64,000 nt of DNA from Capsulimonas corticalis (lineage in GTDB: Bacteria; Armatimonadota; Armatimonadia; Armatimonadales; Capsulimonadaceae). The notes beneath the pieces are model-generated. The model was not told the origin of the DNA. It saw only the letters and a program-made list of their open reading frames with translations, and ran no database searches. The DNA is taken from NCBI RefSeq assembly GCF_003574315.2, contig NZ_AP025739.1:4154001-4218000 (forward strand). The letters are read 5' to 3'. Below are positions 25,570 to 57,046 of the stretch, one piece after another (positions within the stretch are counted from its first letter, which is position 1; the number at the start of each line of letters is the position of its first letter). The position numbers were made by a program, and so were the translations under genes.

Positions 25570-26313
25570 ATGGAACACCTCATGGCGGATAGGTTTAAAG
25601 GCAAAGATGGAGAGCGCCGCTTAGCTGATTCCTTGGCTGAGCAGGTGCTTGTAGGTGGGGACGCAACATTGGCATCCGAATTGGCCAGGTGCGGCGAGCT
25701 TCTCCAATTTCAGGCCGGAGACCAAGTGATTGTGCAAGGCGGTCACGACAACGATATTTACTTTATCGTTCTAGGCGCTGTTGATGTTTTCGTCCATGGG
25801 AGAAAAGTGGCGAGCCGGCGGGCAGGTTCGCACGTGGGCGAGATGGCCTTGGTTCAGCCTGCGCAGTTGCGATCCGCTACTGTGACGGCCAGCGAACAAA
25901 GTGTCCTGCTTCGTGTCTCCGAACCCGACTTTGTCGGTCTGGGCGATACCTTTCCGGTCCTCTGGCGGAGAATCGCCAAAGAACTCGCTCGCCGCCTTGA
26001 GCAACGTAACTCGCTAGTGGCCAATACACGTGACAAGATCCGAATTTTTATCATGTCTTCTGTGGAATCGCTGGATATCGCCCGGGCGATCCAAAACGGT
26101 TTAGAGTACGACCCGTACCTGGTCGTAGTATGGACGGACGGGGTGTTCCGGGCATCATCCTATCCCATTGATGCGCTCGAAGGGGAAGTGGATCAATCTG
26201 ACTTCGCGATCGCGATTGCCCATGCCGACGATGTAACGCACACCAGGGGAAAGACCTGGCCTACCGCTCGGGACAATGTCGTCTTTGAACTGGGACTTTT
26301 TATAGGTCGCTTA

Positions 26314-27528
26314 GTGGTTCATCTCGTAACTGATGGGGTAGGAAATCTCTAGCCATTGCTGGAGGTGCCCCATGTACCTAAAACTGCGTGACCTTACCGC
26401 CGAAGAACGAACGACACTGGATCGGATCGCTCGCTCGCGCACCGAAGCCGTTCGCTTAGTGGAACGCGCCAAAATGATCTTGGCGATAAATGAGGGTCAG
26501 AGTGGTCCCGAAATCGCACGGCAATTCGGCTGTGACGCCGATAAAGTCTATCGCTGGGTCCATCGGTTTTACGATCAAGGACTGGATGGGCTGCAGGACA
26601 AGCGGCGCAGTGGGCGGCCACGCATTTACACGCCTGATCAGTATGCCGAAGTCATTGGAACTGCTCTGACCAGTCCACAAGAGTTACATCTGCCCTTTGC
26701 CAGTTGGACGTTAGACCGCTTGGCGGCCTATCTCAAAGAGCAAAAGAACATTGCGATGGGGCGTAACCGTATCGATCAGATTTTGATTGCCGAAGGACTG
26801 CTTTTGATTGCCGAAGGACTGCGCTGGCAAACTCAGGAAAGCTGGTTTAGTGTCAAGACCGATCCCGATTTTAAGGCAAAAAGGGGGCGCTCGAAGCACT
26901 CTACCAGCAAGTCCCTGAAGATGCCGTTGTCGTCTGTTTAGACGAGATGGGTCCCGAAGCCGCCAAAACTTATCCTGGCAAACAACTGGTTCGAACGCCA
27001 CAGGTCGGCGACGCGGCCATTCGCGCCAAATACGAAGCTGATTATGGCCGTCGCGGGAAGGGCTACTTCTTTGGAGCCTTCATCCCTGCCACAGGCCAGG
27101 CGTTCACCGCACCCTACGAACGGCGTACAGGCGAGAACTGGGTCTGTTTTCTCGAACAGGTTGATCAATGGGAGCCTTGCCAGGGCAAGCGCGTCCTCGC
27201 CATTACGGACAATCTTGGTTCGCATTTGGGCACGGATGCCCAGCTCTTTTCTGCGGAACACGCGCACTGGGAATTTGTTTTCACGCCAAAATACGCGCCG
27301 TACCTGAACCTGATCGAGCCCTGGTGGAAAATCCTACGCTCGCTGGCGCTCAAAGGACGCCGCTTCGAAACCTTTGAGCAAATATGCACAGCGGTCGAAG
27401 CGGCGACCGATTACTGGAACCATCATCGACACCCATTTCAGTGGGGACATCGACGGCGGCATTTACATCACAGGCAGCCAGGCATAGCGCAAACACCGAC
27501 TGCCGTAGCAATTACGAGATGAACCACT
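26314..27528 (+). mobile_element. IS630-family element inserted in the Pycsar effector
   Basis: A 1215-base element with ends GTGGTTCATCTCGTAA and TTACGAGATGAACCACT, bounded by TA (26312-26313 and 27529-27530), the IS630 target. Removing it with one TA restores an uninterrupted effector frame. The terminal repeats are nearly perfect, so the insertion is recent. Confidence 0.92.
26372..27522 (+). CDS. IS630-family transposase, two frames joined by a -1 shift
   Basis: The first frame (26372-26941) carries the helix-turn-helix region (SGPEIARQFGCDADKVYRWV, GRPRIYTPDQ). The second frame (to 27522) carries the DDE domain: VVCLDEMG, LAITDNLGSHLG and YLNLIEPWWKILRS supply Asp, Asp and Glu. The frames meet at a run of five A then five G near 26876-26886; a -1 slip on AAA gives the continuous sequence KKGALEALYQQ-PEDAVVVC. 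Programmed frameshifting occurs in this family, so the enzyme may be made. A 21-base in-frame tandem duplication (LLLIAEGL twice) lies near 26780-26825. Confidence 0.82.
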
Positions 27529-27723
27529 TAGGCAAGAAACGATCGCTGTTAGTAGAGCGAAGAGGGGAAGAAATTAGATTACCGTCTGACCTGACTGGTC
27601 TTACCACTCTTTCGTACAAGTGGTCCGGGGGCAGCAAAGAGCTCGCCGCCGCTATAGCGCCTGTGTGCAACCACATAAGGGAGGCCGTTCGAGAACTCGG
27701 CCCTAACAATTAAGGACACAGAA

Positions 27724-28431
27724 ATGGGACTGCTCTGGGACAAACTTTCCGACGATGTAGCCGGGATCTTTGCAGCTACATGGACAACTACAGATGGACA
27801 AGTAGTTCCCGACCCGAAAGACATTAGGCTTGGGTCCAATGACGCCATTAGGCTGGACGCCACGATACTTTACGCCGACCTTGCCGAATCGACGAACCTC
27901 GTGGATAACTACCAGCCTACGTTCGCGGCGGAAATCTATAAGGCATATCTGCACTGTGCCGCCAACAGTATCCGCCAAATGGGCGGAGAGATCGTCTCAT
28001 ATGACGGCGACCGGATCATGGCCGTGTACATAGGGGACTCAAAGAACTCCAATGCAGCAAAAAGCGCGTTAAGGATCAACGGGGTTGTCTCCGCATTGAT
28101 AAACCCAGCCCTGATCAAGCAATACGGGGAGGGATCTTACCAATTGAGGCAAGCCGTTGGGATCGACACCAGTCCAGTACTTGTCGCACGAACGGGGGTG
28201 CGTGGCGATAATGATCTTGTATGGGTTGGTAGGGCGGCTAATTATGCCGCAAAGCTGTGCTCCTACAGATCTAGCGGCAATGCAAGTATCATAACCTCAG
28301 ACGTTTATTCTCGCCTGAACGATGAGGCTAAGCTGGATGAAAAGACAGGCCGGTCAATGTGGACATTGTTATCGTCCAGCTACAATGGCATCACTCTGTA
28401 CGGCTCGTCATGGTATACACACAACTTCTAG
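27724..28431 (+). CDS. pycC: Pycsar cyclase (class III nucleotidyl cyclase, PycC-like)
   Basis: A 235-residue single-domain class III cyclase. Metal-binding Asp52 (TILYADLAEST) and Asp96 (SYDGDRIMAVY) are present, and the transition-state region reads VGRAANYAAKL, with Asn173 and Lys177 where adenylate cyclases have Asn and Arg. The adenine-selecting Lys of KF-GD is replaced (SYDGD), as expected for an enzyme that does not use ATP. It begins 10 bases after the effector's stop, with AAGGA before the ATG, so effector and cyclase form the two-gene Pycsar operon. Product (cCMP or cUMP) cannot be told from sequence. The cyclase itself is intact although the effector is broken. Confidence 0.85.
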   Translation: MGLLWDKLSDDVAGIFAATWTTTDGQVVPDPKDIRLGSNDAIRLDATILYADLAESTNLVDNYQPTFAAEIYKAYLHCAANSIRQMGGEIVSYDGDRIMAVYIGDSKNSNAAKSALRINGVVSALINPALIKQYGEGSYQLRQAVGIDTSPVLVARTGVRGDNDLVWVGRAANYAAKLCSYRSSGNASIITSDVYSRLNDEAKLDEKTGRSMWTLLSSSYNGITLYGSSWYTHNF

Positions 28432-28574: not shown

Positions 28575-29051
28575 CTACCCACCACAGGTGATTGGCGCGG
28601 TGCGGCGCAGCCAGTTCTTAGCCCGGCAACCTACCCAAAGCTCGTTCCAACCGACGATAACGAGCAGGACAAAGTCGGTATCCGTCTTCGAATCGTTCAA
28701 CATACTGGCTATCATTTTGCGGTCTTGCGCCGATGGGTGCGGCTGAGCGACTGCGTGCGTATGCCATTCGCCAAGATAGACGACGTATCCGTCGCTCTCT
28801 CGCCAGGCATCGTCAATGATTGCTTGAGCGGCTATACGTGACCGAACAAAGAACGATGGGCCAGCGTCATCGAGTGGGGACGGAGTGGTCGCTCGTTCTA
28901 CCAGCACTGTTCCGTCCTCGAGCCGGCGTCCAAGAAGGATGCCACCCGCCTCATTGGCTCCCTTCGCTTGAATGTGTGCGGAAAATACTTCTAGGACTGA
29001 CGGGGTCAGTATCAGGCGTCGCCCGCGCCGAAGCTTGTACATGCTATTCAC
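28575..29051 (-). CDS. JAB/JAMM isopeptidase (Cap3-like)
   Basis: 158 residues. The JAMM metalloprotease motif is complete: Glu34 (NEAGGILLG), then His97-Thr-His99 and, exactly ten residues on, Asp110 (GEWHTHAVAQPHPSAQD). Such proteins remove ubiquitin-like conjugates; in CBASS type II the equivalent Cap3 releases CD-NTases from targets. The start is a GTG at 29051 that overlaps the E2-E1 stop (GTGA), or an ATG at 29042. As last gene of the six-gene operon it is translationally coupled to the E2-E1 fusion. It ends facing the Pycsar cyclase, with 143 bases between. Confidence 0.9.
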   Translation of the reverse strand: MNSMYKLRRGRRLILTPSVLEVFSAHIQAKGANEAGGILLGRRLEDGTVLVERATTPSPLDDAGPSFFVRSRIAAQAIIDDAWRESDGYVVYLGEWHTHAVAQPHPSAQDRKMIASMLNDSKTDTDFVLLVIVGWNELWVGCRAKNWLRRTAPITCGG

Positions 29052-30853
29052 AGGCAGACCCCGCAGTCTTGCCTGGCGAATATCGGATATATCTGGGAAG
29101 TGAACGATACCTGATCGTCATACAGCCGGGAGATAGCTACGCCCTGATTCCTGGCTGCGTCCAGGTCGCCGAACCAGGTAAAACGTACGTTCTTCCTAGA
29201 CCCCACCATCCCCCGTAGGAACCTTGTCAGCGTGGATACGAAGTCCTGGACATCGGTTCCGCCGTAGGGCATATATGTCGACTGGCAACCAGCCTCCCGA
29301 AGTGAAAACTGTGACGGATTCTCAATAATGCGGGGCACATATTCTAGGTCTGACCCCAACAGACACTCTAGGCACCCTTCCGTCGGATGCCCGAGGTAGA
29401 CTGCGTGGGCGCCAACGAGGTGCGGTTCGACCCATACGAAGCACACTGCGCCTTCGCCCAGGCTGCCTGTTTGGTAAAGGTGGTTGAGCCTCCGCTCTAC
29501 GGCAAGTTCTCCTAGAGCGAATACAGAGAGTGATGCGTCACCTAGTAACTTTGGCGATCGACGAAGCACGTTCAAGACGTTTTCGTTGATGGCGACGCAT
29601 TCGAGCTGAGGGAAGTGCTTGAGCAGTTGTCGCCGTATGGCTACAGCCTTGGCCTGATTTATGTCGGACATGCCGCAATAATGTCGTTGGACGTTTTCAG
29701 GGCGGAGCACTTGGGGATCGATAAGCCGTAGCTTGCTCGCGAGTCCAGATCGGACGAGGCTCTCAGCCACAAAGCTTCCGACTGAGCCACAGCCGACGAC
29801 GTTGACGAACCCGGCCGCCCGTTCTCTCTCCTGACCTTGCGTTCGGGCGATCAGGCGTGGGCTCGTAACCTCGGTTACTGTTGCGCGGACCAGTCGCGCA
29901 TGCCCGTTCAGGGTGTTGAGCTCAAGATGGGGAGGGCACTTTCCCATGCGGAATCCGCTGATCCCGTCCGTTGGCCTGATGTCACTGCCGCAACCCGAGA
30001 GGTATTTTGGCTGCGGATGTGCCCACGCGCCAAGCGCTCTGCCGGTCAGTGATGGAATGGAGAACAGTATCCACGTCGGCGGCTCGTTGTTCACAAGGTA
30101 GTGAGTAATGTGACGTAGCGCGTCGGGGTCGAGCGCTTTCAGACGCTCGAACATCTCCCTGTTGGTTGAGGGGTAGGGTGCTCTCCCAAGATTGCCAATC
30201 GGTACGTATAGGCCGCTCGAGCGTCGCAATTTTGACCGGCATTGCACTGCCTTGATCCATAGCTCGGCAGCGATAGCTTTGTCTGCGAACAGAATGGCTG
30301 TCTGGTTCCATGCTGGAAAGAACTCAAACACGGCGACGCGTTTCACGCGATCACCGGGCCGTACGAGAGCTAAGGCTTCCTGGGGAGCCTCGATCCCCCA
30401 GTAAGCCTTAAACTCGTCCGCGAAGTCGTCGACTGCCGGCTCGCCGATGCTTGCGTCCGCCAAGATCGCTCTTGCGCGCTCGACTACCGCAAGGACCACG
30501 TCGCCCGGGACTTCGGCGTTAGGTGTCGCAGCAGTGCTGTCAAAAGTACAGAGCAATCTGCTGTTGTCAAGGTGCAACATACCCTCGTGGCGCTTCGCGC
30601 ACGCGATGGTTAGATACACCGACGGCAGCTCGTCAGGAAACGTTACCGACAGCGCCAGGAGCATCTCTGGCAGTCCGTCGGAGGCGGTCTGGACATACCA
30701 GACCGCTCTCCAGCGTTCCGCATGTTGCGGGAAGTCCGCCGCGCTCGGATCGCACGCCGTTAAGACGTATGAGGACTCGAGGCGCTCCTGCGCCCGTTTG
30801 CAGGCCACACGGTATTCCCGTTCCAGCATGGTGTTAGGCTGAGCGTCCATCAT
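29048..30853 (-). CDS. E2-E1 fusion (Cap2-like ubiquitin-type transferase)
   Basis: 601 residues. Residues 1-130 form a UBC/E2-like fold (LLALSVTFPDELPSVYLTIA) with a candidate catalytic Cys102 (LLCTFDS). A linker region follows (140-340). The ThiF/E1 adenylation domain begins with VNVVGCGSVGSFVAESLV (354-360 is the nucleotide loop), continues with IDPQVLRPENVQRHY, and has a candidate E1 Cys523 (EAGCQSTYMPYGG). Two zinc knuckles CLEC (494-497) and CGVC (597-600) match E1-like proteins. This order and length equal CBASS Cap2, which conjugates the C terminus of a CD-NTase to proteins. Here no CD-NTase exists; the gene overlaps the tandem cyclase by 20 bases. A later start at 30829 is possible. 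Confidence 0.9.
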   Translation of the reverse strand: MMDAQPNTMLEREYRVACKRAQERLESSYVLTACDPSAADFPQHAERWRAVWYVQTASDGLPEMLLALSVTFPDELPSVYLTIACAKRHEGMLHLDNSRLLCTFDSTAATPNAEVPGDVVLAVVERARAILADASIGEPAVDDFADEFKAYWGIEAPQEALALVRPGDRVKRVAVFEFFPAWNQTAILFADKAIAAELWIKAVQCRSKLRRSSGLYVPIGNLGRAPYPSTNREMFERLKALDPDALRHITHYLVNNEPPTWILFSIPSLTGRALGAWAHPQPKYLSGCGSDIRPTDGISGFRMGKCPPHLELNTLNGHARLVRATVTEVTSPRLIARTQGQERERAAGFVNVVGCGSVGSFVAESLVRSGLASKLRLIDPQVLRPENVQRHYCGMSDINQAKAVAIRRQLLKHFPQLECVAINENVLNVLRRSPKLLGDASLSVFALGELAVERRLNHLYQTGSLGEGAVCFVWVEPHLVGAHAVYLGHPTEGCLECLLGSDLEYVPRIIENPSQFSLREAGCQSTYMPYGGTDVQDFVSTLTRFLRGMVGSRKNVRFTWFGDLDAARNQGVAISRLYDDQVSFTSQIYPIFARQDCGVCL

Positions 30854-32330
30854 GCCTCAATATGTACGGGGCAGGCGACTGGACGGCGGCAGCCTGCTTG
30901 GTCGTTTCACCGTCTGGATCCTCTGAGGTGAGGTCAGCCGCTACGTAGTATCGCCGGTCCGAGTCGTAGGAGAACTGCTTCTTGAGCCGGTCCGGCAGGG
31001 CGTCGTATACCCGTTTCGAGACTCCGGTTTCCTTCCCCTCGCACTTCTCCTCCATGGAAGCTGCGGAGTCGACGGGCTCCCCGAGACAAATCCGGTCGCG
31101 GTGGCCGCGGGTGCCGAGCTTTGTGATCAGTGTCGTCCCCTGGTCGACGCCAGCAGCCAGGTTCAGTTTCTTCTTAACGTTTGGCAAGCAGTCCTTGAGA
31201 GATCGCTCCATGGATGCCTGTAGCCCTGCAGCCGTGTCCGTCGCCTCGGTTGCGACCCCGGTTTCGTCATCCTTGGGCAAGTGAATGATGCCCTGCACGC
31301 GGTCCCCTTGGAACTGGATTCGGATCCCGTTGAAGTCTCTCCGGACGACTGCCGCCATTTCCTTGCGTATGACGTGGAACTCGCGTAGACGTTCCTTTTT
31401 GGCTTCGTCGGTGGTCGCCGCGTCGATGTACGCCGTGAATCCGGTGACGTCGCCGTAGACCGAAGCCGCCATGACGCGTTTGTTCTTGCGTATGCTCAAG
31501 TCGTCCACGTCGATCAACTGGTTTGCGGAACTATACTCCACTACGGTAAGGGGGAAGCTTTCCTTGTCGGCCTCGACTCGCTTCTTGCTTGCTTCCCGGT
31601 CCCAGCCGATCCCGTGCGACTTTGTCAGCGCGTCGAGCTTCGCCTGTGAGATGTGCTGCACCTGATAAATGTCATCCTTGTCTGTGACCTCATCGCAGAT
31701 CCCCTGGATATCATCCGGCAATTCGTCGTATACTCGCTTCGTTAGCCGGAGCTGACCGTGTGAATTGATGATCTTCGCCGCGTGATTGGCCGGCGCGCCG
31801 AGAAACAGCAGCTCCCGGTCCTTCGCTTCTCCGTTACGGGTCCCGATCGCATTACCGATGTCCGCACCGCCGGCGATGCGGAAGTTGTCATAGTCAGGGA
31901 ACGCCGGGTTGAAGACCGACGAGACGAAGTCCTTCACAACAAGCTCCAGAAGAATGGCGTGCGCGGAGATCTTCTCGGCGTTGTCGATGGGACGGTATAT
32001 GAGCGCGTGCGCCTTCGGGCCCTGAAAATGCACCCGTACCGCATTGAATATTGCCTCGTCCTGGATGATGCGGCCGACTTCCCGCTGGTAGATGTGCACC
32101 GCTCGGATAAAGCCCTTGTACCGGTCGCTATCGTCGATCTCTTCCGAAGCCAGCTTGGCGAAGTTGGAAACGTGGAGGTATACGTGCGACCCGTAGATCT
32201 CACGGCAGCAGGTCTCGGTAAGGAGATCGTCCAGCTTTGCCTCGCGGACGAGTTTCTTGACCTCGATGTCCCCCATGGAGTCGAGGTGTTGTTGGATGCG
32301 CTTCTTGCTAGTTTCGTAGTCCCAGGCCAT
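30834..32330 (-). CDS. Tandem class III cyclase with one complementary active site
   Basis: 498 residues with two class III cyclase-like domains (about 45-205 and 285-445), each preceded by a repeated W-D-x-E-x-S-K-K-R helix (positions 3-11 and 243-251). Domain 2 keeps both metal-binding Asp residues (D294 in VYGDVTGFT, D343 in FQGDRVQG) but its Asn/Arg positions read D421 and S425. Domain 1 has lost the Asps (H53, P105) yet keeps Asn182 and Lys186 (LGAPANHAAKI). Together they could form one composite site like C1/C2 of mammalian adenylate cyclase. The adenine-specifying Lys is absent. The C-terminal 30 residues look disordered and end in Gly-Arg-Ser-Ala. GAGGAGG precedes the ATG. Confidence 0.82.
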   Translation of the reverse strand: MAWDYETSKKRIQQHLDSMGDIEVKKLVREAKLDDLLTETCCREIYGSHVYLHVSNFAKLASEEIDDSDRYKGFIRAVHIYQREVGRIIQDEAIFNAVRVHFQGPKAHALIYRPIDNAEKISAHAILLELVVKDFVSSVFNPAFPDYDNFRIAGGADIGNAIGTRNGEAKDRELLFLGAPANHAAKIINSHGQLRLTKRVYDELPDDIQGICDEVTDKDDIYQVQHISQAKLDALTKSHGIGWDREASKKRVEADKESFPLTVVEYSSANQLIDVDDLSIRKNKRVMAASVYGDVTGFTAYIDAATTDEAKKERLREFHVIRKEMAAVVRRDFNGIRIQFQGDRVQGIIHLPKDDETGVATEATDTAAGLQASMERSLKDCLPNVKKKLNLAAGVDQGTTLITKLGTRGHRDRICLGEPVDSAASMEEKCEGKETGVSKRVYDALPDRLKKQFSYDSDRRYYVAADLTSEDPDGETTKQAAAVQSPAPYILRHDGRSA

Positions 32331-32341
32331 GTTGCCCCTCC

Positions 32342-33436
32342 TCAGTTGGTCTTTGCCGCAGTCCAGGTGTATAGAGTCTGCTGCGGCGCCCCGGCGATTT
32401 CAACACTTTGGTGTCGCTCGAGATCTGATTGCTCGCTACCGGTCAGCCGCCCGTAGAACTCTTCGCCGACGGTGATCGTAGCGCCAAGCTTCTTACACTG
32501 GGTTTCAAAACGGGAGGCTAGATTGACTGGCGCTCCGAGGACCGTAAACTGCCTCTTGCCATCTCCGCCGACGTTGCCGATAAAGACGCGGCCCGCATTT
32601 AGTCCGACGCCGATCGAAATCGGCTTCCCGCCAAAACTCAGCGCCTGGGCTGCAGCCACCATAGACTTAGCGCAGTTCAAGGCAAGAGATGCGGGCTCCC
32701 CGTCAGCGGGCGCATAGCCCCAAATCGCCATAACGGCGTCGCCGACAAACTTGTCGACCATTCCCTCGTGGTCGTGGATTATCCCGACCATCGTATCGAG
32801 ATAGCGGCTAAGCTGAGAAGCAACATCCGCTGGATCCAATTCCCCGGAGAGATCGGTGAACGACCGTATGTCAGAGAAGAGAACTATCGCGTCGATGTAT
32901 CGCGGCTCTCCATATCTCAGCCCGGTCGCCATTAACCTGTTGAGGACCGGCTGCGAAACGTGCGAGCGGAACTCGGCGAAAAGCAGGTCTTCCTTCTTGT
33001 AGCGGTAAGCACGTTCCGCCGTCGCCTCCGCCAGCTTTCTTGAAACCTCCTGCAAGAGGCCCCGCAGGAACGAGGGATCCTGCAGGAAGGTGCTTGCCAG
33101 CGCTCGCGGGATCTGGAAAAGCTGCACGGCCCCTTGGGCCGTGCCCGTCGCGGAGCGCGGACAGTCATCGATTATCGCCTGTTCCCCAACCACTTCGAAC
33201 GCTTGTCGAGTCGCCATGTGAGAACCGTCCCGAGTGATTCGGACTTGGCCATGCAAAATTATATAGAGAAAACGAGCTTCCTCTCCCTCATGGAATATGA
33301 TTTCGCCGTCTCGATACTCGCACAGGAAATCGGGCGTAATCGCATCCTTGAGATTGTTGGGCAGGCTGGAAAGCACTGGCACTATACCGATAGACTCGGT
33401 CCAGCGTTTCGGATCATCTGTTTCTTTGATGGCCAT
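32342..33436 (-). CDS. cNMP-binding domain plus adenylate cyclase
   Basis: About 364 residues from the ATG at 33436 (GAGGAG before it). Residues 20-135 are a CRP-like cyclic-nucleotide-binding domain with the cassette GEQAIIDDCPRSAT. Residues 180-350 are a class III cyclase with every canonical residue: Asp189 (FSDIRSFTDL), Lys229 and Asp233 (KFVGD), Thr298 (QFTVLGAPVNL), Asn305 and Arg309 (VNLASRFE). The Lys/Thr pair predicts ATP as substrate. A cyclase with its own cNMP sensor suggests feedback or amplification by the product of the neighbouring tandem cyclase. Twelve bases separate it from the tandem-cyclase gene. Confidence 0.88.
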   Translation of the reverse strand: MAIKETDDPKRWTESIGIVPVLSSLPNNLKDAITPDFLCEYRDGEIIFHEGEEARFLYIILHGQVRITRDGSHMATRQAFEVVGEQAIIDDCPRSATGTAQGAVQLFQIPRALASTFLQDPSFLRGLLQEVSRKLAEATAERAYRYKKEDLLFAEFRSHVSQPVLNRLMATGLRYGEPRYIDAIVLFSDIRSFTDLSGELDPADVASQLSRYLDTMVGIIHDHEGMVDKFVGDAVMAIWGYAPADGEPASLALNCAKSMVAAAQALSFGGKPISIGVGLNAGRVFIGNVGGDGKRQFTVLGAPVNLASRFETQCKKLGATITVGEEFYGRLTGSEQSDLERHQSVEIAGAPQQTLYTWTAAKTN

Positions 33437-33506
33437 GTAAGGGCTCCTCAGTGTGGCATCGCGCTCACCGCGTTCACACAAGGCTGTGAACGCGTGCGCT
33501 AAAAAA

Positions 33507-34064
33507 TTAGATAATCGCAGAGAATACGTACTGACGCCCGCCTGCTTCGACTGGGATATTGCTTACCCGCGCCATGATACCCATGTCCGTCAGTCGGGAG
33601 AGACGGTTGCTGCTTGCTGTTATGCTGAGATTTCCGTCGATTGAAAGGTCGCGCGCAGTAAGCTTGCCTTTCGTCCGCGCCAGATTGAACGTATCTAACG
33701 TCTCCTCGTTAACCCTCCCCAGCAACTCAACGTCCCCGTTTGTCCTCTGATGAACCGCGACGAGCTGCCGTAGGGTCAGGGCAGCCTGAATATTCTCTCT
33801 TACAAGGTCGGAGAGGTGATAAAGCACCACGAACTTACCGACGAGGTCACCGCCTGCTATACGTTTAACGAGCTTGGCGACGAATTCGTCACTGAAGGAA
33901 TAGTCGACAAACCGTACGCCTTCAAAATCAAGCGGAAGTACGGAGTTGGCCGGCAACTCCTCAATATGCTCAGTAACGATTTCCCTTATCGCCTTGCCGG
34001 GACTTCTACCGTGCAATATCTCGTCAGGAAACGGAATGGCGTACGGTGGCAACCGCAGTATCAT
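33507..34064 (-). CDS. DUF4325-like STAS protein
   Basis: 185 residues. The N-terminal half has the STAS-like pattern VLPLDFEGVRFVDYSFSDEF followed by a helix, VAKLVKRI, as in DUF4325 proteins, which often pair with a GHKL ATPase. The C-terminal half looks like a winged helix (LTARDLSIDGNLSITASSNR, then a wing) that may bind nucleic acid or a partner. GGAGG lies five bases before the ATG. It sits between the STAS-HATPase gene and the cyclases, about 70-85 bases from each, so it belongs to the same operon and is the probable target of that kinase-like protein. Confidence 0.75.
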   Translation of the reverse strand: MILRLPPYAIPFPDEILHGRSPGKAIREIVTEHIEELPANSVLPLDFEGVRFVDYSFSDEFVAKLVKRIAGGDLVGKFVVLYHLSDLVRENIQAALTLRQLVAVHQRTNGDVELLGRVNEETLDTFNLARTKGKLTARDLSIDGNLSITASSNRLSRLTDMGIMARVSNIPVEAGGRQYVFSAII

Positions 34065-34148
34065 AGCGCCTCCACAGCGCTCTGTGAGCGCGATGAATCA
34101 AGTATACCCGTATATTCAGTGGTTCGTCGCGGTTCGGCAATAGCATCG

Positions 34149-35042
34149 TTAACCGTCCCCGGCCGGCAGTATGATATGGAGGTGTGTTCCCGGGAAATAT
34201 GACACGGATCGTGCTGCTGGCGATGCGCTGACAGCGATGCTTGCCTCGCCGGAGCGGATGTGCAGCACGCCCGAATGCTCCCGCACGATCTGCTTGATAC
34301 GATACAGGCCGAGCCCCCGGTCATGATCCCGAAATCGAGACCGCCTCTTGCGTAGGGCCATGACTATCGCTTCCGCGTCGCCCGCCCGGGCAAGTTCCGG
34401 GTATTGCTCTACGAGCGTTGAGCGTATTCCGTCTCCGCAATCCGATACGGAAATTCGCACCTCACGTGTCCCGGATCTCACGTAGGTTTGGACTGCCGCC
34501 ACCCCGGTCCCTGAGCTGTGATCGACGACGTTCCGGCAGGCCTCGGTGAGTGCCGTAGCCAGATCCGATATAACACGCGTTGAGTAGCCGAGTTGCGATT
34601 CCAGGATTTGCTGCATCCTGTCTAGGATTGTTGATATGATTACCGAAATCTCGTCGTCCGCTTGGATGCGAGTCAGTTCTAGGAGGGCGGGGGAATTGCG
34701 GCTGTGAGACCACTCCGTGAATGAGCGGGACGAGCAGGCGACCCCTTCTTCGACCATCCTCCTGAAAAATCCCATTCTATCCATGTAGGACAGGACGTCG
34801 GCGCTACGGGGCATCAAGAGCGTGACGTCTTGCCGCCGGGCTCGCAATGCGTGTACCGCAGCCCACAAGCACGTCATTCCGCCCGGATCTACGAACTGAA
34901 CATTGCGCAGATCAATGGTCAGAGCCGATGGCATGCTCGCCCCTGGCCCTAAAAGATTACCGGGGACCGATGCAAAGACGCGGTCCATATCGGAGCCTGA
35001 AAGAGACGGCTTGCCGAAGTGTATGGTTTGGCCAATAGTCAC
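34149..35042 (-). CDS. STAS plus GHKL ATPase protein (anti-sigma-kinase-like)
   Basis: 297 residues from a GTG at 35042 with GGAG before it. Residues 30-115 are STAS-like (ALTIDLRNVQFVDPGGMTCL). Residues 150-290 are a histidine-kinase-like ATPase with the N box (ATALTEACRNVVDHSSG), the G1 box (SDCGDGI) and the G2 region (DRGLGLYRIKQIV). This is the RsbW/RsbT-like fold that phosphorylates STAS partners or binds other proteins. It is the first gene of the six-gene operon running to 28575, so it may sense the trigger or keep the system silent. Divergent from the phosphoesterase gene. Confidence 0.82.
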   Translation of the reverse strand: MTIGQTIHFGKPSLSGSDMDRVFASVPGNLLGPGASMPSALTIDLRNVQFVDPGGMTCLWAAVHALRARRQDVTLLMPRSADVLSYMDRMGFFRRMVEEGVACSSRSFTEWSHSRNSPALLELTRIQADDEISVIISTILDRMQQILESQLGYSTRVISDLATALTEACRNVVDHSSGTGVAAVQTYVRSGTREVRISVSDCGDGIRSTLVEQYPELARAGDAEAIVMALRKRRSRFRDHDRGLGLYRIKQIVREHSGVLHIRSGEASIAVSASPAARSVSYFPGTHLHIILPAGDG

Positions 35043-35099
35043 GGTAGCTCCGCGTAAAGGGATAAGGCATGGTACCTTATATTGGGTATAGGATTAACT

Positions 35100-35759
35100 A
35101 TGAAGCTTCTCGCGTTGGCTGACATTCATAGCGACTTCGAACGTTTTTCCGTCAATGACCTTCCAGCGGCGGATGTTATGCTGTTCGCGGGCGACCTAAC
35201 AGACAATGGTATCCGCGACCCTGTTGCGCTATCGCTGGCAACTACGTGGTTGGATGCTGCCGCTGCGCGATACGGGCTCGTAATCGCTATACCTGGCAAC
35301 CACGATGTAGGCCTTAGTGGAAGCTGTCTGCCGGCGGTGAATGGAGTGCGTTGGGTTCAAGGCATCACAACTTCGTTTAGCGATTGTTCCGCCTCGCAGA
35401 TTTACAAGCTCCACGGAGTAAACCTTTCGCCTAGCTATGCGATGCCCGAGCTTGAGGCGCGATGGGATTTCATGACATCCGATGAATTGACGGAGACGGT
35501 TGCATATGGTTTTGAGCCAGTCGACATTGTCCTATCGCATGCTCCGCCATATGGCGTCCTTGATGGATATTCTCCTGAGGACGGTGGCGAAGTCCTGCAT
35601 ATTGGCAGCCGCGCTCTGCTATCGTATATACATCGATGCGCTCCCGCACTGGTGATCTGCGGACATGTCCACGGCGCCCATGGTATCGCCGAGGCGAGCG
35701 CCAACACTCTCGTATACAACGTGGCTGAAACGCCCACATTGATCGAAATTCCAAGTTGA
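35100..35759 (+). CDS. Calcineurin-like metallophosphoesterase
   Basis: 219 residues from the ATG at 35100. The five family blocks are visible: LADIHSDFE (DxH), FAGDLTDNG (GDxxD), IPGNHDVG (GNHD), VLSHAPPYG and VICGHVHGAHG (GHxH). It should hydrolyse phosphoesters, possibly cyclic nucleotides. It is divergent from the six-gene operon with only 57 bases between, so the two share a control region. I infer that it could degrade the operon's signal, for example as an off-switch, but nothing in the sequence fixes its substrate. Confidence 0.82.
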   Translation: MKLLALADIHSDFERFSVNDLPAADVMLFAGDLTDNGIRDPVALSLATTWLDAAAARYGLVIAIPGNHDVGLSGSCLPAVNGVRWVQGITTSFSDCSASQIYKLHGVNLSPSYAMPELEARWDFMTSDELTETVAYGFEPVDIVLSHAPPYGVLDGYSPEDGGEVLHIGSRALLSYIHRCAPALVICGHVHGAHGIAEASANTLVYNVAETPTLIEIPS

Positions 35760-38062: not shown

Positions 38063-38932
38063 TCACAAGTCTCCTTCCTTGTTGAAAATATTTTCTGATA
38101 TTGATGGGTTGTTTATGGCTTCTAATAACCTTAAACGAGAATCTGAGAATAACATCATAAATCCGTCAGATGCTTCACCTACAATTATATTTTGATGAGT
38201 TCCAAAATCAATATTTATTGCACCTAGGAATTTTTTTCTTACCATTACGCCAGAAGATTGTAAACGCTCGTATCCTATAAAGTGAACTGCGTCTTCGAAA
38301 GGATTCCCCTGCACATTGAGAAAATGTAGGCTGAGACAAAGCTTTTTACCGCCTTTTGATATAACCTGTGTTTGTGGCCTATCAATTGCATCAGGATTAG
38401 TGACAATAACATAGATATTAATAATAAGATTTACCTGAGCTGTACCCAGGTAGTCTTCCTTATAATGCCTTATAAGAAGATTCCAGAGCTGCCCACCTGC
38501 ATTACCAACATTACCAGTATCAAACAAAATAATAGACTCTTCATCAGGCAATGTATCGATCCAATCGATAAATCTTGCCTTCGGATCAAAAGGCAAACCT
38601 CGCCAGTTCAAGCCAGCAAATAAATGGAATTTTTCATCGCGCACAGTTTGACCAGACTCCGACAGCACTTTGACCATGTAGTCAAGTGGGAAAACCCCTC
38701 CTAGAGCAAATGTTACTACCCTATCATAAGACATAGCGGAGAATAATATTTGGTTTATGGTATCTTTTAGATTACGGATAACTTGAATATGTAAAGGCGG
38801 TTGAAGCTTCTCATTAATGAATATATTTTCCCGTATAAAGGTGAATATTTCTCTATCCCATTCAGGATCTGCATCAGCCCCGAAATGTATAGTGTATGGG
38901 AGCGGCATCATGCCTGTAGCTCTATCTGACAT
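38063..38932 (-). CDS. AT-rich orphan gene, possible phosphoribosyltransferase-like fold
   Basis: 289 residues, in markedly AT-rich DNA (about 40 % GC by eye, against nearly 60 % around it), so probably acquired from another source. Two segments recall type I phosphoribosyltransferases: SYDRVVTFALGGVFPLDYMV (nucleotide-fold strand with GG) and EESIILFDTGNVGNAGGQLW (like the PRPP loop, with an acidic residue and Gly-rich turn). Residues 85-135 link them. The C-terminal 90 residues are beta-rich with no recognised motif. AAGGAAA precedes the ATG. It stands alone among island debris; a defence role is possible but unsupported. Confidence 0.55.
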   Translation of the reverse strand: MSDRATGMMPLPYTIHFGADADPEWDREIFTFIRENIFINEKLQPPLHIQVIRNLKDTINQILFSAMSYDRVVTFALGGVFPLDYMVKVLSESGQTVRDEKFHLFAGLNWRGLPFDPKARFIDWIDTLPDEESIILFDTGNVGNAGGQLWNLLIRHYKEDYLGTAQVNLIINIYVIVTNPDAIDRPQTQVISKGGKKLCLSLHFLNVQGNPFEDAVHFIGYERLQSSGVMVRKKFLGAINIDFGTHQNIIVGEASDGFMMLFSDSRLRLLEAINNPSISENIFNKEGDL

Positions 38933-51509: not shown

Positions 51510-51700
51510 TATGCATGTGCTCTTCAGAAACCGCTCATAGGGCTGTCAGGTGAGGCGGCAGGGCTGAGCCCATACGGCCGTTCGCAGTTCGGGTTCATTT
51601 CCTGGCGGCTCCACCAGTTTCTGGCATTTGTGGAACGGGCATTTGTGGAAACGGCATGTCATTTCGAGAAGATGGAAAGCATGTATTAGGAGATGGAAAC

Positions 51701-52918
51701 ATGTATTTAAAGGGAGACGCTTACCAGCAGGTGGCGACCGCGTGGTATGGCGCTAGTCAATACACAACTCAGCCACCCTCCGAAGCAGCATGTCCTCCAT
51801 TCCGGACGGTCGGTGGGGACGTCGGTTTAGAGGCCGGCGCGGTGCTTGCCGGCCGGTACCGCCTCGAACAGCCGCTGGGCTCCGGAGCATTCGCAACCGT
51901 ACGCGCCGCCTGGGATCTGGCTCTCTTTCGCCATGTTGCGGTGAAGATCTACTCCAGCGTGGACGCAGGTCCGATATCGGTGGACGAGGCCAGGCTTCAA
52001 GCGACATGCCAGCATCCCAACTTGATGCCTCTTTACGACGCCGGCAGCGACTCGCTCCTCGGCGCGTCCTTCCTGGTAATGCCGCTCTATCCCGGCGCTG
52101 ACCTCGCAGCGACGCTGAATCAGCTTGGCCCGCTGCCATTCCGAGCCGCCGTTCTCTGCGCGGATCAGATATGCAGTGCACTTGACTTTCTTTGGCGGAT
52201 GCGCCAGACGCCCCATGGAGACGTCAAGCCGTCGAACATCTGGCTGACGCAAAGCGGCGCGGCGCTGCTGATGGATTTCAACCTGCCTGGTTTGATGGCG
52301 CGCAGTGGTTTGTCCTGCGCCGGAACACCGGGTTTTACGGCGCCTGAAGTCTTTTGGGGGCGACGCGATCAACGCTCGGACATATTCTCACTCGGTTGCG
52401 TGCTCTACCAGTGCCTCTCCGGGCAGGCGCCGTTTTCAGACGACAGCGTGGCGGCATCAGGCCAATTTGTTCCTTTGCGACGGCTGCGGCCGGAGATATG
52501 GCCGGACCTTGAGAACGTTGTCCAAACAGCGCTGCAGACCGATCCCGACAAACGATACCAATCGGCCAGAGAGATGCAGTCCGCCCTCCGGCGGCGCAAG
52601 AGTGTTGATGGCATTTCGTGGCTAACGGCGGTTTGGCACGGCGTATTCACCTGCTCAGGGATGCTGCTGCGCATCGCCGCCTGGGTTTATCGGATGGCCT
52701 GGAAGCATCTTGGCCAGTTTGTGCGCCATGCGTGCAAAAAGCCGGGTCAGGCGCTGGTCGAAGCGGTTCTCCTGCTGATTGCCACCCAAGCGGCGCGGGG
52801 ATGGCTGGAAGGGCATCGACAGCAGATCATCTCTCTGCTCATCGGCGCATCGTGCCTCGCGATGATCGGAACAACCGTGGCCGCGAAACTGCGGAATGGC
52901 GCGCGATCTGGGAGGTGA
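51701..52918 (+). CDS. Serine/threonine protein kinase with C-terminal membrane segments
   Basis: About 405 residues from the ATG at 51701 (TAGGAGA nine bases upstream; an in-frame ATG at 51656 lacks a site). Kinase motifs: GSGAFATV (P loop), HVAVKIY (catalytic Lys), HGDVKPSN (catalytic loop, HGD instead of HRD), MDFNLPG (DFN instead of DFG), GFTAPEVFWG (APE) and SDIFSLGCVLYQ. Asp and Lys are kept, so activity is plausible with altered Mg loop. The C-terminal 120 residues contain two hydrophobic helices (ALVEAVLLLIATQAARGW; IISLLIGASCLAMIGTTVAA). It ends six bases before the FHA-RT gene. Confidence 0.88.
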   Translation: MYLKGDAYQQVATAWYGASQYTTQPPSEAACPPFRTVGGDVGLEAGAVLAGRYRLEQPLGSGAFATVRAAWDLALFRHVAVKIYSSVDAGPISVDEARLQATCQHPNLMPLYDAGSDSLLGASFLVMPLYPGADLAATLNQLGPLPFRAAVLCADQICSALDFLWRMRQTPHGDVKPSNIWLTQSGAALLMDFNLPGLMARSGLSCAGTPGFTAPEVFWGRRDQRSDIFSLGCVLYQCLSGQAPFSDDSVAASGQFVPLRRLRPEIWPDLENVVQTALQTDPDKRYQSAREMQSALRRRKSVDGISWLTAVWHGVFTCSGMLLRIAAWVYRMAWKHLGQFVRHACKKPGQALVEAVLLLIATQAARGWLEGHRQQIISLLIGASCLAMIGTTVAAKLRNGARSGR

Positions 52919-52923
52919 CGGCG

Positions 52924-55569
52924 ATGACCTACGATTTTCAAGATATGCGGCCGACCGCGCTGGCGCGAACCAGTCCTGTTGAAAGCGTCACCTTAGAAAT
53001 CGTGAACGGTCCAGAGGCGGGACGCATTATCGCTGTCAGCACTCTGCCCTGCCGCTTGGGGCGCGCTGGACGGTCCGAAATCGTCCTGGCGGATCCAGAC
53101 AATCCGCCCGGACTTTCGCGCGAACACGCTACGCTGGAGGTGTCAGGCGGCGCGCTAGTGTTGCGGGACAACAGCGTCAATGGCACTCGCGTTGGCGATC
53201 GGTGGCTGAGCCGGGGCGAGGCGGTGGAATGGATGGGAGGCGAGCTCCTGCAGCTCGGCCCATCGCTCCAGATCCGCCGGACAAGCGGAGACGCCCTGCA
53301 AGTCAAGTCTGATGCCGCTGGGACCGGCGCCCGCACAGAAGCGTCGCCGACAAGGCCCGGAGCGATGCGCGCGTTCCTGACGAGCCCCGACACACTGACG
53401 GCCGCATGGCGGCGCGTGGAATTGAATCGCGGGGCTGCGGGACCGGACAATGTCACTGTGGCGGAGTTCAGTCAGGACGCCTCTGGGAGGCTGGCCGCGC
53501 TGCGCGGCCAGCTGACTCGGGGCCGGTATACGCCGCTGCCGCCACGGATCTTCGCCGCACCCAAGCGCAGTGGCGGCGTTCGCAGGATCGCGATCCTGAG
53601 CGTCTCCGATAGGGTTGTGCAGCAGGCGATACACATGGCGCTCCAGCCGCTGCTGGAGCCGATATTTCCTCCGTGCAGCTATGCCTATCGCCCTGGCGTA
53701 TGCGCCCATCACGCACTGAGGCGCATTGACGGACATTTGCGCCAGGGGCTGCACTGGGTCGCGGAGACGGACATCGCCGCCTTCTTTGACACCATTGTCC
53801 ACGCAATCCTTCTGGAAAAGCTGTCCAATCACGCTCCCGACCCCTTCCTGCTCTCGCTAATCTCGAACTGCCTCGCCGTAGGGGCCTCCACCCCTGGCCT
53901 CGGGCTTGCGCAGGGGGCGGCAATGTCGCCGCTCCTGAGCAACCTGTACCTGTCCGAGTTTGACGCCCACATGCTGGAGGGCGGCTGGAATCCGGTGCGC
54001 TACGGCGATGACCTTCTCTTTGTCGGAGAGTCGCGGACGCGAGCGCAGGCGGCGCTGGCAGAGGCCGAAGGATATCTTCGCTCCCGTCTTCAGCTGTCGC
54101 TGCAGCCGGAGAAGACCGGTGTCGCTCCGCTGGCCAGAGGCTTCACGTTTCTAGGATATCGCTTCACGGAAGAAGGACGCCGTCCTTCTCCGCATTCCAT
54201 TGGCCGCCTGCGGGAACGGCTGGAGGATGTCTCTCCTGAGCAGGCGACTGCCGTGAAGCGGGGATGGGCAAATTATTTTGGCGAGGTTCCCTCGGAGCAA
54301 AAAATCTCCGCTCCGCTCCGTTTGGACGCCGAGTGGATGTCGCGATTCCTCCTCCTGTTTGGGGGACGCGAAGATGCTCACGCACGACAGGGCGGCGGCC
54401 GTTTTGTTCCCTGTGCGGGTCCGCTGTCTCCTGTGGATGTCCAGGAACATTTAGCGGGTTCAGAGACACTGGCGGCTTACTTGCTGAAGCGGGACGGGAT
54501 GGTGCGCACCGTTGTGATGGACATCGACGCCGTGCGCGGGGATGGCGCTGAATCGCAGATGGAGCCTGTCATCGCGTTCGCGGATGATCTCCGGCAGATC
54601 TGTCGTCTGTTCGGCGTTCCATGCGCTCTGGAAGACAGTGGCCGGCGCGGCCGGCATCTCTGGCTCTTCTTTTCCGAACCGGTCCCGCCGGAACGCGCAC
54701 GCCGGCTTGCGCGGCTTTTGGCCGTCCGCGCCGGATTTCCGAAGCCCCGCGTCAGGCTGGAAATCCTACCGCGGCATACGGCTTGGCCGGGTCCAGAACT
54801 GGGCGACGCCGTGAAACTGCCATTCGGCGTTCATCCTGTCACGGGGCGGCGCTGCCACCTTTTGGATAGTGATGGGGAAGCTATCATCGATCCCATGGAT
54901 GCTCTGAACGGGATCGGCTTGATTGAGGCTTCCGGGATAGAGGGGCTGATTGCTTCACTGGGGAAGACCACCCAACGGACCCATTCAGGCGAGTCTGCCT
55001 TGAAACAGGAGGGGAGACCTGCGCGCAGCGCGCCGGAATCCGAGGAAGGGAGCCCCGTGGAGCGTCTCATGGCTGGTTGCGGAGTCGTCCGCGCACTGGC
55101 TGACCGCGCCCGAACGACGGGGCATCTGCGTCATACCCACAACCTGATCCTGCTTTACACAGCGGGGCGGCTCGGCGCTCCCGGGGCGGCGTTCGTGCAC
55201 CAGACCGTCGGGCAGTGTCGTAACTATGAGGCGCGGATTTGCCAGGGGTACCTGGATCGGCTGGACACCCAGCACGCACCGCTCTCCTGCCATCGCATTC
55301 GTGAGTGGCTTGAAGAAGAAGGGGAGATGGACCTCTGTACCTGCCCCAAGAGCCGCAAAGCGCCTCTGGACTGCGTAGCCGAGGCGCCGACCGCAAAGCC
55401 GCTTGGCGGGACTGCCCGGACAAAGAAGCCGCGCCCTTCCGCGCCTGTATTGCCTTCAGAGGCTGATCCGGAATTGCGAGACGCTTGGAGCGATGTCGAA
55501 TCGGACCTGTTCTCGCAGCGTCTGGAAGTTTTGGGTGAGGATGTGGAGGAGATTAGGGAAGAGCAATGA
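52924..55569 (+). CDS. FHA-reverse transcriptase-primase/polymerase fusion, CRISPR-associated
   Basis: 881 residues, GGAGG eight bases before the ATG. Residues 20-118: FHA phosphothreonine-binding domain (CRLGRAGRSEIVLA, GLSREHATLE, DNSVNGTRVG). Residues 150-415: group II intron/CRISPR-type reverse transcriptase (TDIAAFFDTI with Asp283; QGAAMSPLLSNLYLSEFD; active site YGDD 360-363; FTFLGYRF). Residues 505-650: archaeo-eukaryotic primase-like domain (MDIDAV 532-537; SGRRGRHLWLFF; KLPFGVHPVTGRRCHLLD), as in CRISPR-associated Prim-Pol. Residues 719-807 carry conserved-looking Cys (719, 765, 773, 789, 805, 807), perhaps a metal or Fe-S domain. Its stop overlaps cas1 by ATGA. It should make DNA from RNA for spacer acquisition; FHA implies control by the adjacent kinase. 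Confidence 0.88.
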   Translation: MTYDFQDMRPTALARTSPVESVTLEIVNGPEAGRIIAVSTLPCRLGRAGRSEIVLADPDNPPGLSREHATLEVSGGALVLRDNSVNGTRVGDRWLSRGEAVEWMGGELLQLGPSLQIRRTSGDALQVKSDAAGTGARTEASPTRPGAMRAFLTSPDTLTAAWRRVELNRGAAGPDNVTVAEFSQDASGRLAALRGQLTRGRYTPLPPRIFAAPKRSGGVRRIAILSVSDRVVQQAIHMALQPLLEPIFPPCSYAYRPGVCAHHALRRIDGHLRQGLHWVAETDIAAFFDTIVHAILLEKLSNHAPDPFLLSLISNCLAVGASTPGLGLAQGAAMSPLLSNLYLSEFDAHMLEGGWNPVRYGDDLLFVGESRTRAQAALAEAEGYLRSRLQLSLQPEKTGVAPLARGFTFLGYRFTEEGRRPSPHSIGRLRERLEDVSPEQATAVKRGWANYFGEVPSEQKISAPLRLDAEWMSRFLLLFGGREDAHARQGGGRFVPCAGPLSPVDVQEHLAGSETLAAYLLKRDGMVRTVVMDIDAVRGDGAESQMEPVIAFADDLRQICRLFGVPCALEDSGRRGRHLWLFFSEPVPPERARRLARLLAVRAGFPKPRVRLEILPRHTAWPGPELGDAVKLPFGVHPVTGRRCHLLDSDGEAIIDPMDALNGIGLIEASGIEGLIASLGKTTQRTHSGESALKQEGRPARSAPESEEGSPVERLMAGCGVVRALADRARTTGHLRHTHNLILLYTAGRLGAPGAAFVHQTVGQCRNYEARICQGYLDRLDTQHAPLSCHRIREWLEEEGEMDLCTCPKSRKAPLDCVAEAPTAKPLGGTARTKKPRPSAPVLPSEADPELRDAWSDVESDLFSQRLEVLGEDVEEIREEQ

Positions 55570-56555
55570 TCACGCTTTACGTTCGAGAGCAAGGGGCGGG
55601 CATACGGCGAAGCGGGCAGAGGCTGATCGTTTACAAGGGACAGCAGGCGCTCCAGACCACCCGGCTGCGTGATTTGGAGCGCCTGGTCCTCTTCGGCAAT
55701 GTTGATCTGACTGCGTCCGCGTGTGCATCGCTGCTGGAAATGGGCGTCGAGACGGTCCTGCTGTCTTACGGCGGCAAGTTTCGCGGGCGTCTCACTCCTC
55801 CCGACGCCAAGAACGTATTTCTGCGGCAGACGCAGTTTCGCCGTTACGAAGACATGGAGTTCCGGCTGCGCATCGCCCGCGCGATCGTCGCGGGCAAGGT
55901 GCGGAACGCACGGTCTGTTCTCCAGCAGTATGTATGGAATCATCCCGCCCCATCCTTGACAGCTGCAATAGATCGGCTCCAGGCGACAAGAGAAAGGATA
56001 GGGAGACACGCGAGCCTGGACGCGCTGCTCGGAGCGGAGGGAGAAGCAGCGAGCGTATACTTCGCCGCCTTTGGAACGATGCTGCGCACCGGCTTTGCCT
56101 TCACCACACGGACGCGCCGCCCGCCGCGCGACCCGGTCAACGCGGTGCTGAGCTTCGCGTACACGCTCCTGAGCACGGAGATGGCGGGCGCTCTGGCGTC
56201 GCAGGGCCTCGATCCGCACGTCGGGATCCTGCACGATCTCGATTATGGCCGCCCGTCTTTGGCGCTCGATCTCCTGGAGGAATTCCGCCAGCCTGTCGCG
56301 GACCGGCTGGCGCTAAGCCTGTTCAACCGGGGAGTGCTGGCCAACGGCCATTTCGACGACCGAGGAGAAGCCGGCGTGCTGCTGAATGATGCGGGACGCT
56401 CTCGCTTTCTTGAATTTTACCACCGGACTTTAGAAACCGAGTTTCAGTTTAGCGGAGGCAAGACCTGCTATCGTGAGATTTTCCGTTTTCAGGCTCGACG
56501 AATGCGAATTGCTCTTGAGAACGAGACTGATTATATCACTTATGCTGCACGTTAA
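55566..56555 (+). CDS. cas1: CRISPR integrase Cas1
   Basis: 329 residues. N-terminal beta domain (MITLYVREQGAGIRRSGQRL; RLVLFGNVDLTASA) and C-terminal helical domain with the catalytic Glu in LLGAEGEAASVYF, His in GILHDLDYGRPSLALDLLEE and the following acidic residues (LLEEFRQPVADR). It is a stand-alone Cas1, translationally coupled (ATGA) to the FHA-RT-primase gene rather than fused to the RT as in many RT-Cas1 systems. Cas2 follows 14 bases later. Confidence 0.95.
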   Translation: MITLYVREQGAGIRRSGQRLIVYKGQQALQTTRLRDLERLVLFGNVDLTASACASLLEMGVETVLLSYGGKFRGRLTPPDAKNVFLRQTQFRRYEDMEFRLRIARAIVAGKVRNARSVLQQYVWNHPAPSLTAAIDRLQATRERIGRHASLDALLGAEGEAASVYFAAFGTMLRTGFAFTTRTRRPPRDPVNAVLSFAYTLLSTEMAGALASQGLDPHVGILHDLDYGRPSLALDLLEEFRQPVADRLALSLFNRGVLANGHFDDRGEAGVLLNDAGRSRFLEFYHRTLETEFQFSGGKTCYREIFRFQARRMRIALENETDYITYAAR

Positions 56556-56569
56556 AAGAGGATGTCGTC

Positions 56570-56860
56570 ATGTCCACTAGTGTTCGAAGCCGTTATCTAA
56601 TCGCTTATGATATTACGGATGACGCAAAGCGCACAAAACTTTCAAAGATGTTGCAGGATTACGGCGATCGAGTGCAGAAAAGCGTGTTCGAAGCGGACCT
56701 TACTTCCCAGGATATTCAGGCAGTAATGCGAAAGGCGGCCGTTTATGTCGGCAAGGAAGATAGCCTACGAATCTACCCGATGTGCGCGAACTGCAGAAAG
56801 GGCGTCCATTCATTAGGACAGCCCCTATCCAGTCCAACGGCGACTTTCTGTATTGTCTGA
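56570..56860 (+). CDS. cas2: CRISPR adaptation protein Cas2
   Basis: 96 residues with the ferredoxin-like Cas2 pattern: RYLIAYDITDDAKRTKLSKM (active-region Asp), YGDRVQKSVFEADLTSQDIQ, and EDSLRIYPMCANC. AGAGGA precedes the ATG. It forms the Cas1-Cas2 complex; the array leader begins just after its stop. Confidence 0.93.
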   Translation: MSTSVRSRYLIAYDITDDAKRTKLSKMLQDYGDRVQKSVFEADLTSQDIQAVMRKAAVYVGKEDSLRIYPMCANCRKGVHSLGQPLSSPTATFCIV

Positions 56861-57046
56861 GAGGCCGTGAATTAGGAACGTATTACTGGCGCCCTAACCT
56901 CAAAAAATCCAAATAAGCTGTTTGGCTAGGGCAGCACCCTTGAGAGTAATAACGGGATGAAAATTATGAAAAAACGGCGAATCAACCTTTCGGCTTCTTT
57001 TGATGAATCGGTTAGGGCAATTCAGAAGGAAAAATGAGAAGCAGGG
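56861..57046 (+). promoter_or_regulatory. CRISPR leader
   Basis: 186 bases, AT-rich, between cas2 and the first complete repeat. The opposite end of the array has a truncated repeat, and the repeats end in ATTGAAAC, so the leader is on this side. Confidence 0.75.

Follow-up and report, generated by a model that had tools for sequence, protein, structure and literature searches.

Organization of the operon

We analyzed a 64,000-nucleotide stretch of the genome of Capsulimonas corticalis, a single 7.6-Mb contig (NZ_AP025739.1, positions 4,154,001 to 4,218,000; the whole stretch is termed the window), which contains an operon joining class III nucleotide cyclases to an E2-E1 fusion and a JAB peptidase of the ubiquitin-like conjugation type. 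A preliminary description of this DNA had reported six genes in one direction, with short gaps or overlaps, at 28575-35042. This observation was confirmed by the open reading frames (ORFs) and by Pfam and PADLOC profile searches, on which all domain calls for window proteins are based. The six ORFs lie on the minus strand and encode, from 5' to 3', two proteins with STAS domains, a cyclic nucleoside monophosphate (cNMP)-binding adenylate cyclase (termed cNMP-cyclase), a tandem cyclase, the E2-E1 fusion and the JAB peptidase (Table 1). They are separated by gaps of 84, 70 and 11 bp, followed by overlaps of 20 and 4 bp, and all six are intact with conserved catalytic residues. The coordinates of the cNMP-cyclase correspond to its likely ATG start; a TTG at 33481 merely lengthens the frame.

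Table 1 Features of the operon, its candidate operators and the neighbouring Pycsar genes (positions in the window).
Feature	Position	Strand	Details
CapK-like STAS-GHKL kinase	34149..35042	-	297 aa; HATPase_c_2 8.8e-9, STAS_2; GHKL N-box ALTEACRN
CapS, STAS-winged-helix repressor	33507..34064	-	185 aa; STAS-like, weak DUF4325 and winged-helix matches; predicted phospho-Ser56
cNMP-binding domain + class III adenylate cyclase	32342..33436	-	364 aa; cNMP_binding 1.3e-16, Guanylate_cyc 2e-19
Clade A-type PycC, tandem class III cyclase	30834..32330	-	498 aa; PADLOC PycC PDLC00765 2.7e-115
Cap2-like E2-E1 fusion	29048..30853	-	601 aa; Prok-E2_B + ThiF; PDLC00850 3.5e-132; E2 Cys102, E1 Cys523
Cap3-like JAB/JAMM isopeptidase	28575..29051	-	158 aa; Prok-JAB 7.9e-14; PDLC00896 5.5e-41
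Candidate CapS operator 1	34073..34086		CACA-N6-TGTG; capK-capS gap
Candidate CapS operator 2	33475..33488		CACA-N6-TGTG inside longer palindrome; gap before cyclase operon
Second PycC, clade B type	27724..28431	+	convergent with operon; PDB 7r65 (BcPycC) E 5.4e-57; PADLOC PycC 1.8e-91
PycTIR, N-terminal part (cNMP-binding + start of TIR)	25570..26313	+	CAP12-PCTIR_TIR 2.9e-24; PADLOC Effector TIR 3.4e-104, PycTIR 1.2e-95
IS630-type insertion sequence (IS) inside PycTIR	26314..27527	+	1214 bp; perfect 16-bp inverted repeats at the ends, TTA on either side; family called from gene layout, not from a hidden Markov model (HMM)
PycTIR, C-terminal remainder	27528..27713	+	ends ...IAPVCNHIREAVRELGPNN, resembling the C terminus of the L027 relative, ...VAPACTEIRKAIQKVGPK

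A clade A-type Pycsar cyclase in the CD-NTase position

In type II CBASS (cyclic oligonucleotide-based antiphage signalling system), a CD-NTase (cGAS/DncV-like nucleotidyltransferase) is combined with Cap2 and Cap3. The cyclase at the corresponding position of the operon is of class III and showed no SMODS/DncV-like match in Pfam, in agreement with the preliminary description, which had noted that a CD-NTase is absent. By its sequence and predicted fold, this tandem cyclase is a member of a described family, the clade A-type cyclases (PycC) of Pycsar (pyrimidine cyclase system for antiphage resistance): it matched PaPycC (PDB 6yii) at 1e-39 in sequence, and its structural model (predicted local distance difference test, pLDDT, 84.9) matched the same entry in Foldseek with an E value of 7.4e-38 and a template modelling (TM) score of 0.80. 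PaPycC (6YII) is the clade A example among these enzymes, clade A PycC contain two cyclase domains, and cyclic UMP (cUMP) is the product of clades A-D (PMC11224242). In the alignment, the metal aspartates of the window PycC are missing in domain 1 and kept in domain 2, and its Asn/Lys stretch (ANHAAK) lies in domain 1, which suggests one active site assembled from two halves. One match to the tandem PycC was found in viral contigs and no relative in the compared genome of the same genus (69% complete).

Described Pycsar units consist of a PycC and a cyclic-pyrimidine receptor (PMC11224242). Unlike these, the window PycC is followed by E2-E1 and JAB genes, preceded by the cNMP-cyclase and accompanied upstream by the STAS genes. 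With type II CBASS the operon shares the gene order behind the cyclase, a Cap2-like E2-E1 and then a Cap3-like JAB, as well as the small C-terminal residue; it differs in that its cyclase is a class III (Pycsar) enzyme and in having no CBASS effector. Our literature search, which was incomplete and may have passed over an earlier mention of E2 beside PycC, found no description of E2, E2-E1 or JAB as Pycsar partners.

Both conjugation enzymes typical of type II CBASS, a Cap2-like E2-E1 with E1 and E2 cysteines and a Cap3-like JAMM peptidase, are present, and the translations and alignments contain the catalytic residues named in the preliminary description. Cys102 of the E2 domain was invariant in two alignments. 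Residue 523 of the E1 domain is a cysteine, and the stretch around it is conserved in most Cap2 on the window's side of the E2-E1 tree, though not in the sequences of clade I (see below). The JAMM residues E34, H97, H99, S107 and D110 were invariant. The best Foldseek match of the E2-E1 model was Enterobacter cloacae Cap2 with CdnD02 (PDB 7to3, E 8e-21). The alignments for structure models combined the window sequence with the relatives' loci, plasmid-record sequences being left out.

PycC genes recur beside E2 or E2-E1 genes

A genome scan gave 80 loci, to which plasmid matches were added, and 86 loci have a tandem PycC; because the loci were found by patterns from one alignment, the sample is skewed to one family. 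Two loci end too early to show the next gene, and our counts rest on the other 84. The gene directly after PycC encodes an E2-only protein in 62 of these and an E2-E1 in the remaining 22, usually with a JAB gene next, so that the tandem cyclase occurs repeatedly with Cap2-like genes, as the preliminary description would lead one to expect. All 62 E2-only genes were supported by an E2 HMM, and representatives by the Pfam families E2-ntca and E2-Crich, which already cover E2-only genes beside PycC, and by PADLOC E2. The E2-only arrangement resembles type II-short CBASS (CD-NTase and E2 only) in the position of the E2 gene; here PycC replaces the CD-NTase, and the RP[HYF]-type tails of the E2-only PycC differ from the tails found with E2-E1. 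No E2-E1 relatives were found in viral contigs, and no relative of the E2 of L027 in plasmids.

The closest relative of the window PycC (L027, Acidobacteria; 61% identity) lies beside an E2-only gene and PycTIR, and locus L030 contains a cNMP-cyclase, PycC and E2. In the PycC tree, the window is nested in a group of five that is otherwise E2-only; its lineage has therefore probably exchanged an E2-only gene for an E2-E1 gene. Burkholderia cepacia LK29 (L064, 6986-14370) carries a clade A PycC with E2-E1, JAB and a second PycTIR in one operon, and convergent with it a PycTIR and the gene for BcPycC, which shows full identity to PDB 7R65 across residues 2-229. This well-studied gene is located ~2 kb from such an operon, which means that a tested model locus already exists.

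C-terminal tails follow the E2-E1 clade

In type II CBASS, the C-terminal Gly/Ala of the cyclase becomes linked to Cap2 as a thioester, and conservation of this residue was reported solely for CD-NTases with Cap2 and Cap3 (PMC10097602). A tail peptide, KPGGFA, was found conjugated to PspA in the Bacillus cereus CBASS (PMC11153139). The window PycC has such a flexible tail: it ends in Ala498 (last residues HDGRSA), and residues 470-498 are disordered in the model (pLDDT below 50, 23-32 in the tail). C-terminal alanine was found in 22 of the 23 PycC beside E2-E1, the window included; counted as distinct sequences, it occurs in 21/22 E2-E1 PycC versus 5/56 E2-only PycC (Fisher, 2e-13). The PycC tree implies at least three switches between E2-only and E2-E1, and alanine follows the switch in an average of 2.9 of 3 independent pairs, too few to reach significance alone, and never in the opposite direction.

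The same E2-E1 clades adjoin CD-NTases in other genomes (identified by Pfam for ten, by record annotation for the others). In clade I, PycC tails such as FPNRPTGPAKPGGFA (L033) parallel CD-NTase tails such as FPNRPLIPKKPGGFA (Gloeocapsa, L157) and GPTKPGGFA (Deinococcus, L156), which ends in the KPGGFA conjugated in B. cereus; in clade II, HSSGGTRHA of a PycC (L021) parallels NSAGGGRHA of a Sinorhizobium meliloti CD-NTase (L145). Written as motifs after the tails had been inspected, GF[AGS] occurs in 20/20 PycC and 13/13 CD-NTases of clade I and [GE]GxR[HYN][AG] in 2/2 PycC and 8/8 CD-NTases of clade II, each nowhere else and both in 0/62 E2-only PycC. Over pairs of PycC and CD-NTases, tail similarity and E2-E1 distance were correlated with a Spearman coefficient of -0.80 (0/5000 permutations), and the coefficient remained at -0.73 to -0.77 when the set was thinned. 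The E2-E1 tree shows three changes of cyclase type, and in it the window groups with the CBASS Cap2 of L118/L119 (support 83, long branch). Since the tail follows the E2-E1 clade and not the cyclase fold, these comparisons indicate about three transfers of Cap2 and its tail between CD-NTases and PycC, one of them into the window. One tail per Cap2 clade on two unrelated folds would be hard to explain unless Cap2 handles the tail.

Two further observations concern the tails. Some CD-NTase tails run past the motif (GFGGK in L153, GFGGAE in L154, GGRYAGSALP in L143) and would need trimming before conjugation, perhaps by Cap3. An RP[HYF]-type motif is located near the C terminus in 49/62 E2-only PycC (e.g. 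L025, L050, L054) and in 1/23 E2-E1 PycC.

Recurrence, the C-terminal alanine, the tails shared with CD-NTases and the lack of room for a ubiquitin-like gene make it likely that PycC, in the CD-NTase position, is the substrate conjugated by way of its C terminus, as the preliminary description had proposed. Alternatively, the E2-E1 and JAB could act on another protein, either a ubiquitin-like protein encoded elsewhere or an unrelated substrate, with the cyclase regulated indirectly. Bil and Bub systems offer a precedent, as their E2, E1 and JAB sets act with a separate ubiquitin-like protein, and BubCD structures (9eae/9eav) are among the E2-E1 matches. We consider this very unlikely: a separate ubiquitin-like gene in the operon was rejected for want of room (gaps of 11 bp or overlaps), in PycC as well as CD-NTase operons the C terminus of the cyclase varies together with the E2-E1 clade, and the best structural match is a CD-NTase-bound Cap2. 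The window thus has E2, E1 and JAB enzymes in common with Bil, Bub and 6A-MBL, but those carry a separate ubiquitin-like or other partner gene, whereas here the cyclase is the likely substrate.

The STAS genes resemble the CapK-CapS controller

CapK-CapS is a DNA-damage transcription controller that represses an adjacent immune operon until CapK senses single-stranded DNA; each gap holds a palindrome to which CapS binds (Chambers et al. 2026, PMC13373217). Residues 31-184 of the window CapS matched PDB 9z72/9z73 and 9z71 (phmmer, E 1e-4), entries whose chain content fits the CapS structures of that study, and Ser56 aligns with their phosphorylated serine. As in the described pair, a STAS-GHKL kinase is followed by a STAS-winged-helix protein with a predicted phospho-serine, upstream of an immune operon. 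The pattern CACA-N6-TGTG, picked after looking at the sequence, has exactly two matches in the 64 kb (0.65 expected), one per gap, which reproduces the published two-site layout. Two differences were noted: Pfam found no N-terminal helix-turn-helix (HTH) in the 297-aa kinase, for which a start further upstream is possible, and the main text of PMC13373217 names CBASS, Bub, Bil and other systems, but not Pycsar, as following CapKS. Related pairs precede a ThiF operon (L161), an operon encoding a 752-aa protein that includes a JAB (L159) and, on a plasmid, a region with E2/ThiF genes further on (L160), and also occur in L172-L174.

The preliminary description took the STAS proteins for a sensor or lock of the cyclase. 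The PDB matches and the published system led us to reject this in favour of CapK-CapS; the two genes are best read as a DNA-damage-responsive transcription switch, which probably controls the cyclase operon in the window. No CapKS was found in the other clade A PycC loci examined, so the six genes do not form one conserved set: at most four genes make up the conserved unit, and the STAS genes are a separate controller pair outside the core.

Candidate effectors

The preliminary description saw no classical effector. One is encoded nearby, in a standard Pycsar pair of PycTIR and a clade B-type PycC that lies on the opposite strand at 25570-28431, convergent with and downstream of the operon; this PycTIR is split by the IS. 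The neighbouring clade B-type PycC is a feature that the locus shares with known Pycsar systems; most relatives have PycTIR-type effectors beside them.

A possible substitute lies in the operon itself. The cNMP-cyclase matched CyaB/CyaC and the cNMP domain of PycTIR in the PDB, and has adenylate-cyclase-like residues. It lies directly upstream of PycC in 6 other loci, all without PycTIR. PycTIR occurs within 4.5 kb in 0/6 relatives with the cNMP-cyclase and in 61/69 without it (P = 1.5e-5, optimistic because the loci are related). Because the two exclude each other in related loci, the cNMP-cyclase may stand in for PycTIR as the receptor, being itself an effector or amplifier. A cNMP-binding cyclase in this role would represent a new type of Pycsar output.

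The locus could instead be a stress-signalling module, in which CapKS-controlled cyclases shift cyclic nucleotide levels and the E2-E1 and JAB tune the amount or location of the cyclase. The resemblance of the first cyclase to ordinary adenylate cyclases and the broken state of the known killing effector are in its favour. We nevertheless regard it as improbable, given that the tandem cyclase belongs to the PycC family, that PycTIR accompanies so many relatives without the cNMP-cyclase, and that the setting includes a type III-D CRISPR locus, transposases and recombinases. Somewhat less improbable, though still unlikely, is a decaying remnant, in which the IS630-type insertion inactivated the effector and the remaining genes have lost their function. 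The interrupted PycTIR and several flanking IS elements speak for decay; the six intact operon genes with their conserved catalytic residues, and the possible replacement of PycTIR by the cNMP-cyclase, speak against it.

Proposed mechanism

We consider it probable that the locus encodes an anti-phage system of the Pycsar type to which type II CBASS components have been added, comprising CapKS repression, a PycC conjugated through its tail and a cNMP-binding effector. By analogy with the described family, CapK and CapS would repress the operon until DNA is damaged or single-stranded DNA appears. The Cap2-like protein would then load the C-terminal alanine of the clade A-type PycC by E1 adenylation and via its E1 and E2 cysteines, and conjugation to a cellular or phage lysine would prime or localise the cyclase, a bond that the Cap3-like JAB could reverse. 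Once activated, PycC would produce a cyclic mononucleotide, probably cUMP, the reported product of clades A-D, and a cNMP-binding effector would read it: PycTIR in most relatives and, in the window, either the PycTIR broken by the IS or the cNMP-cyclase, the first gene of the cyclase operon. The interpretation given in the preliminary description is partly supported.

Several points weigh against this explanation. PycTIR is broken in the window, so the system may be decaying; the locus sample leans to the family behind the single-alignment search patterns; the E2-E1 model is middling (pLDDT 72.6, TM 0.47 to Cap2); and the tree-corrected alanine association rests on three independent pairs (sign test, P = 0.25). 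The window tail, ILRHDGRSA, has neither strong motif, and tails in its E2-E1 clade vary (SGKFA, SGSFA, GTSQGA), so its match is limited to the small terminal residue. Comparative support for tail-directed PycC conjugation is accordingly strong for the class and weaker for the window's own tail.

The operon joins two immune systems, Pycsar and CBASS, that have been treated as separate. If PycC is conjugated as CD-NTases are, cyclase tethering would be a control step shared by chemically different alarms, and the C-terminal tail a readable code for which Cap2 acts on which cyclase. More tentatively, Cap2/Cap3 might be a portable conjugation module, its E2-E1 and matching tail having been exchanged some three times between CD-NTases and the cyclases of Pycsar, with tethering a general activation step and, in the window, a two-step relay through the cNMP-gated adenylate cyclase. 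We know of no description of such a two-step cyclic-nucleotide relay.

Genomic surroundings

Divergent from CapK, a calcineurin-like phosphoesterase (35082-35759, plus strand; PADLOC candidate PDC-S10) could degrade cyclic nucleotides. A 289-aa protein without a family match in Pfam or PADLOC is encoded in an AT-rich patch (38063-38932, minus strand; GC 0.45). The type III-D CRISPR-Cas region occupies 51656-62705 and encodes a kinase-like protein (PD-T4-6 match), a 983-aa fusion of reverse transcriptase (RT) and PrimPol, Cas1, a Card1-like CARF protein, Cas10 and a Cas7-Cas5 fusion; its CRISPR array (57043-57587) has a 75-bp period.

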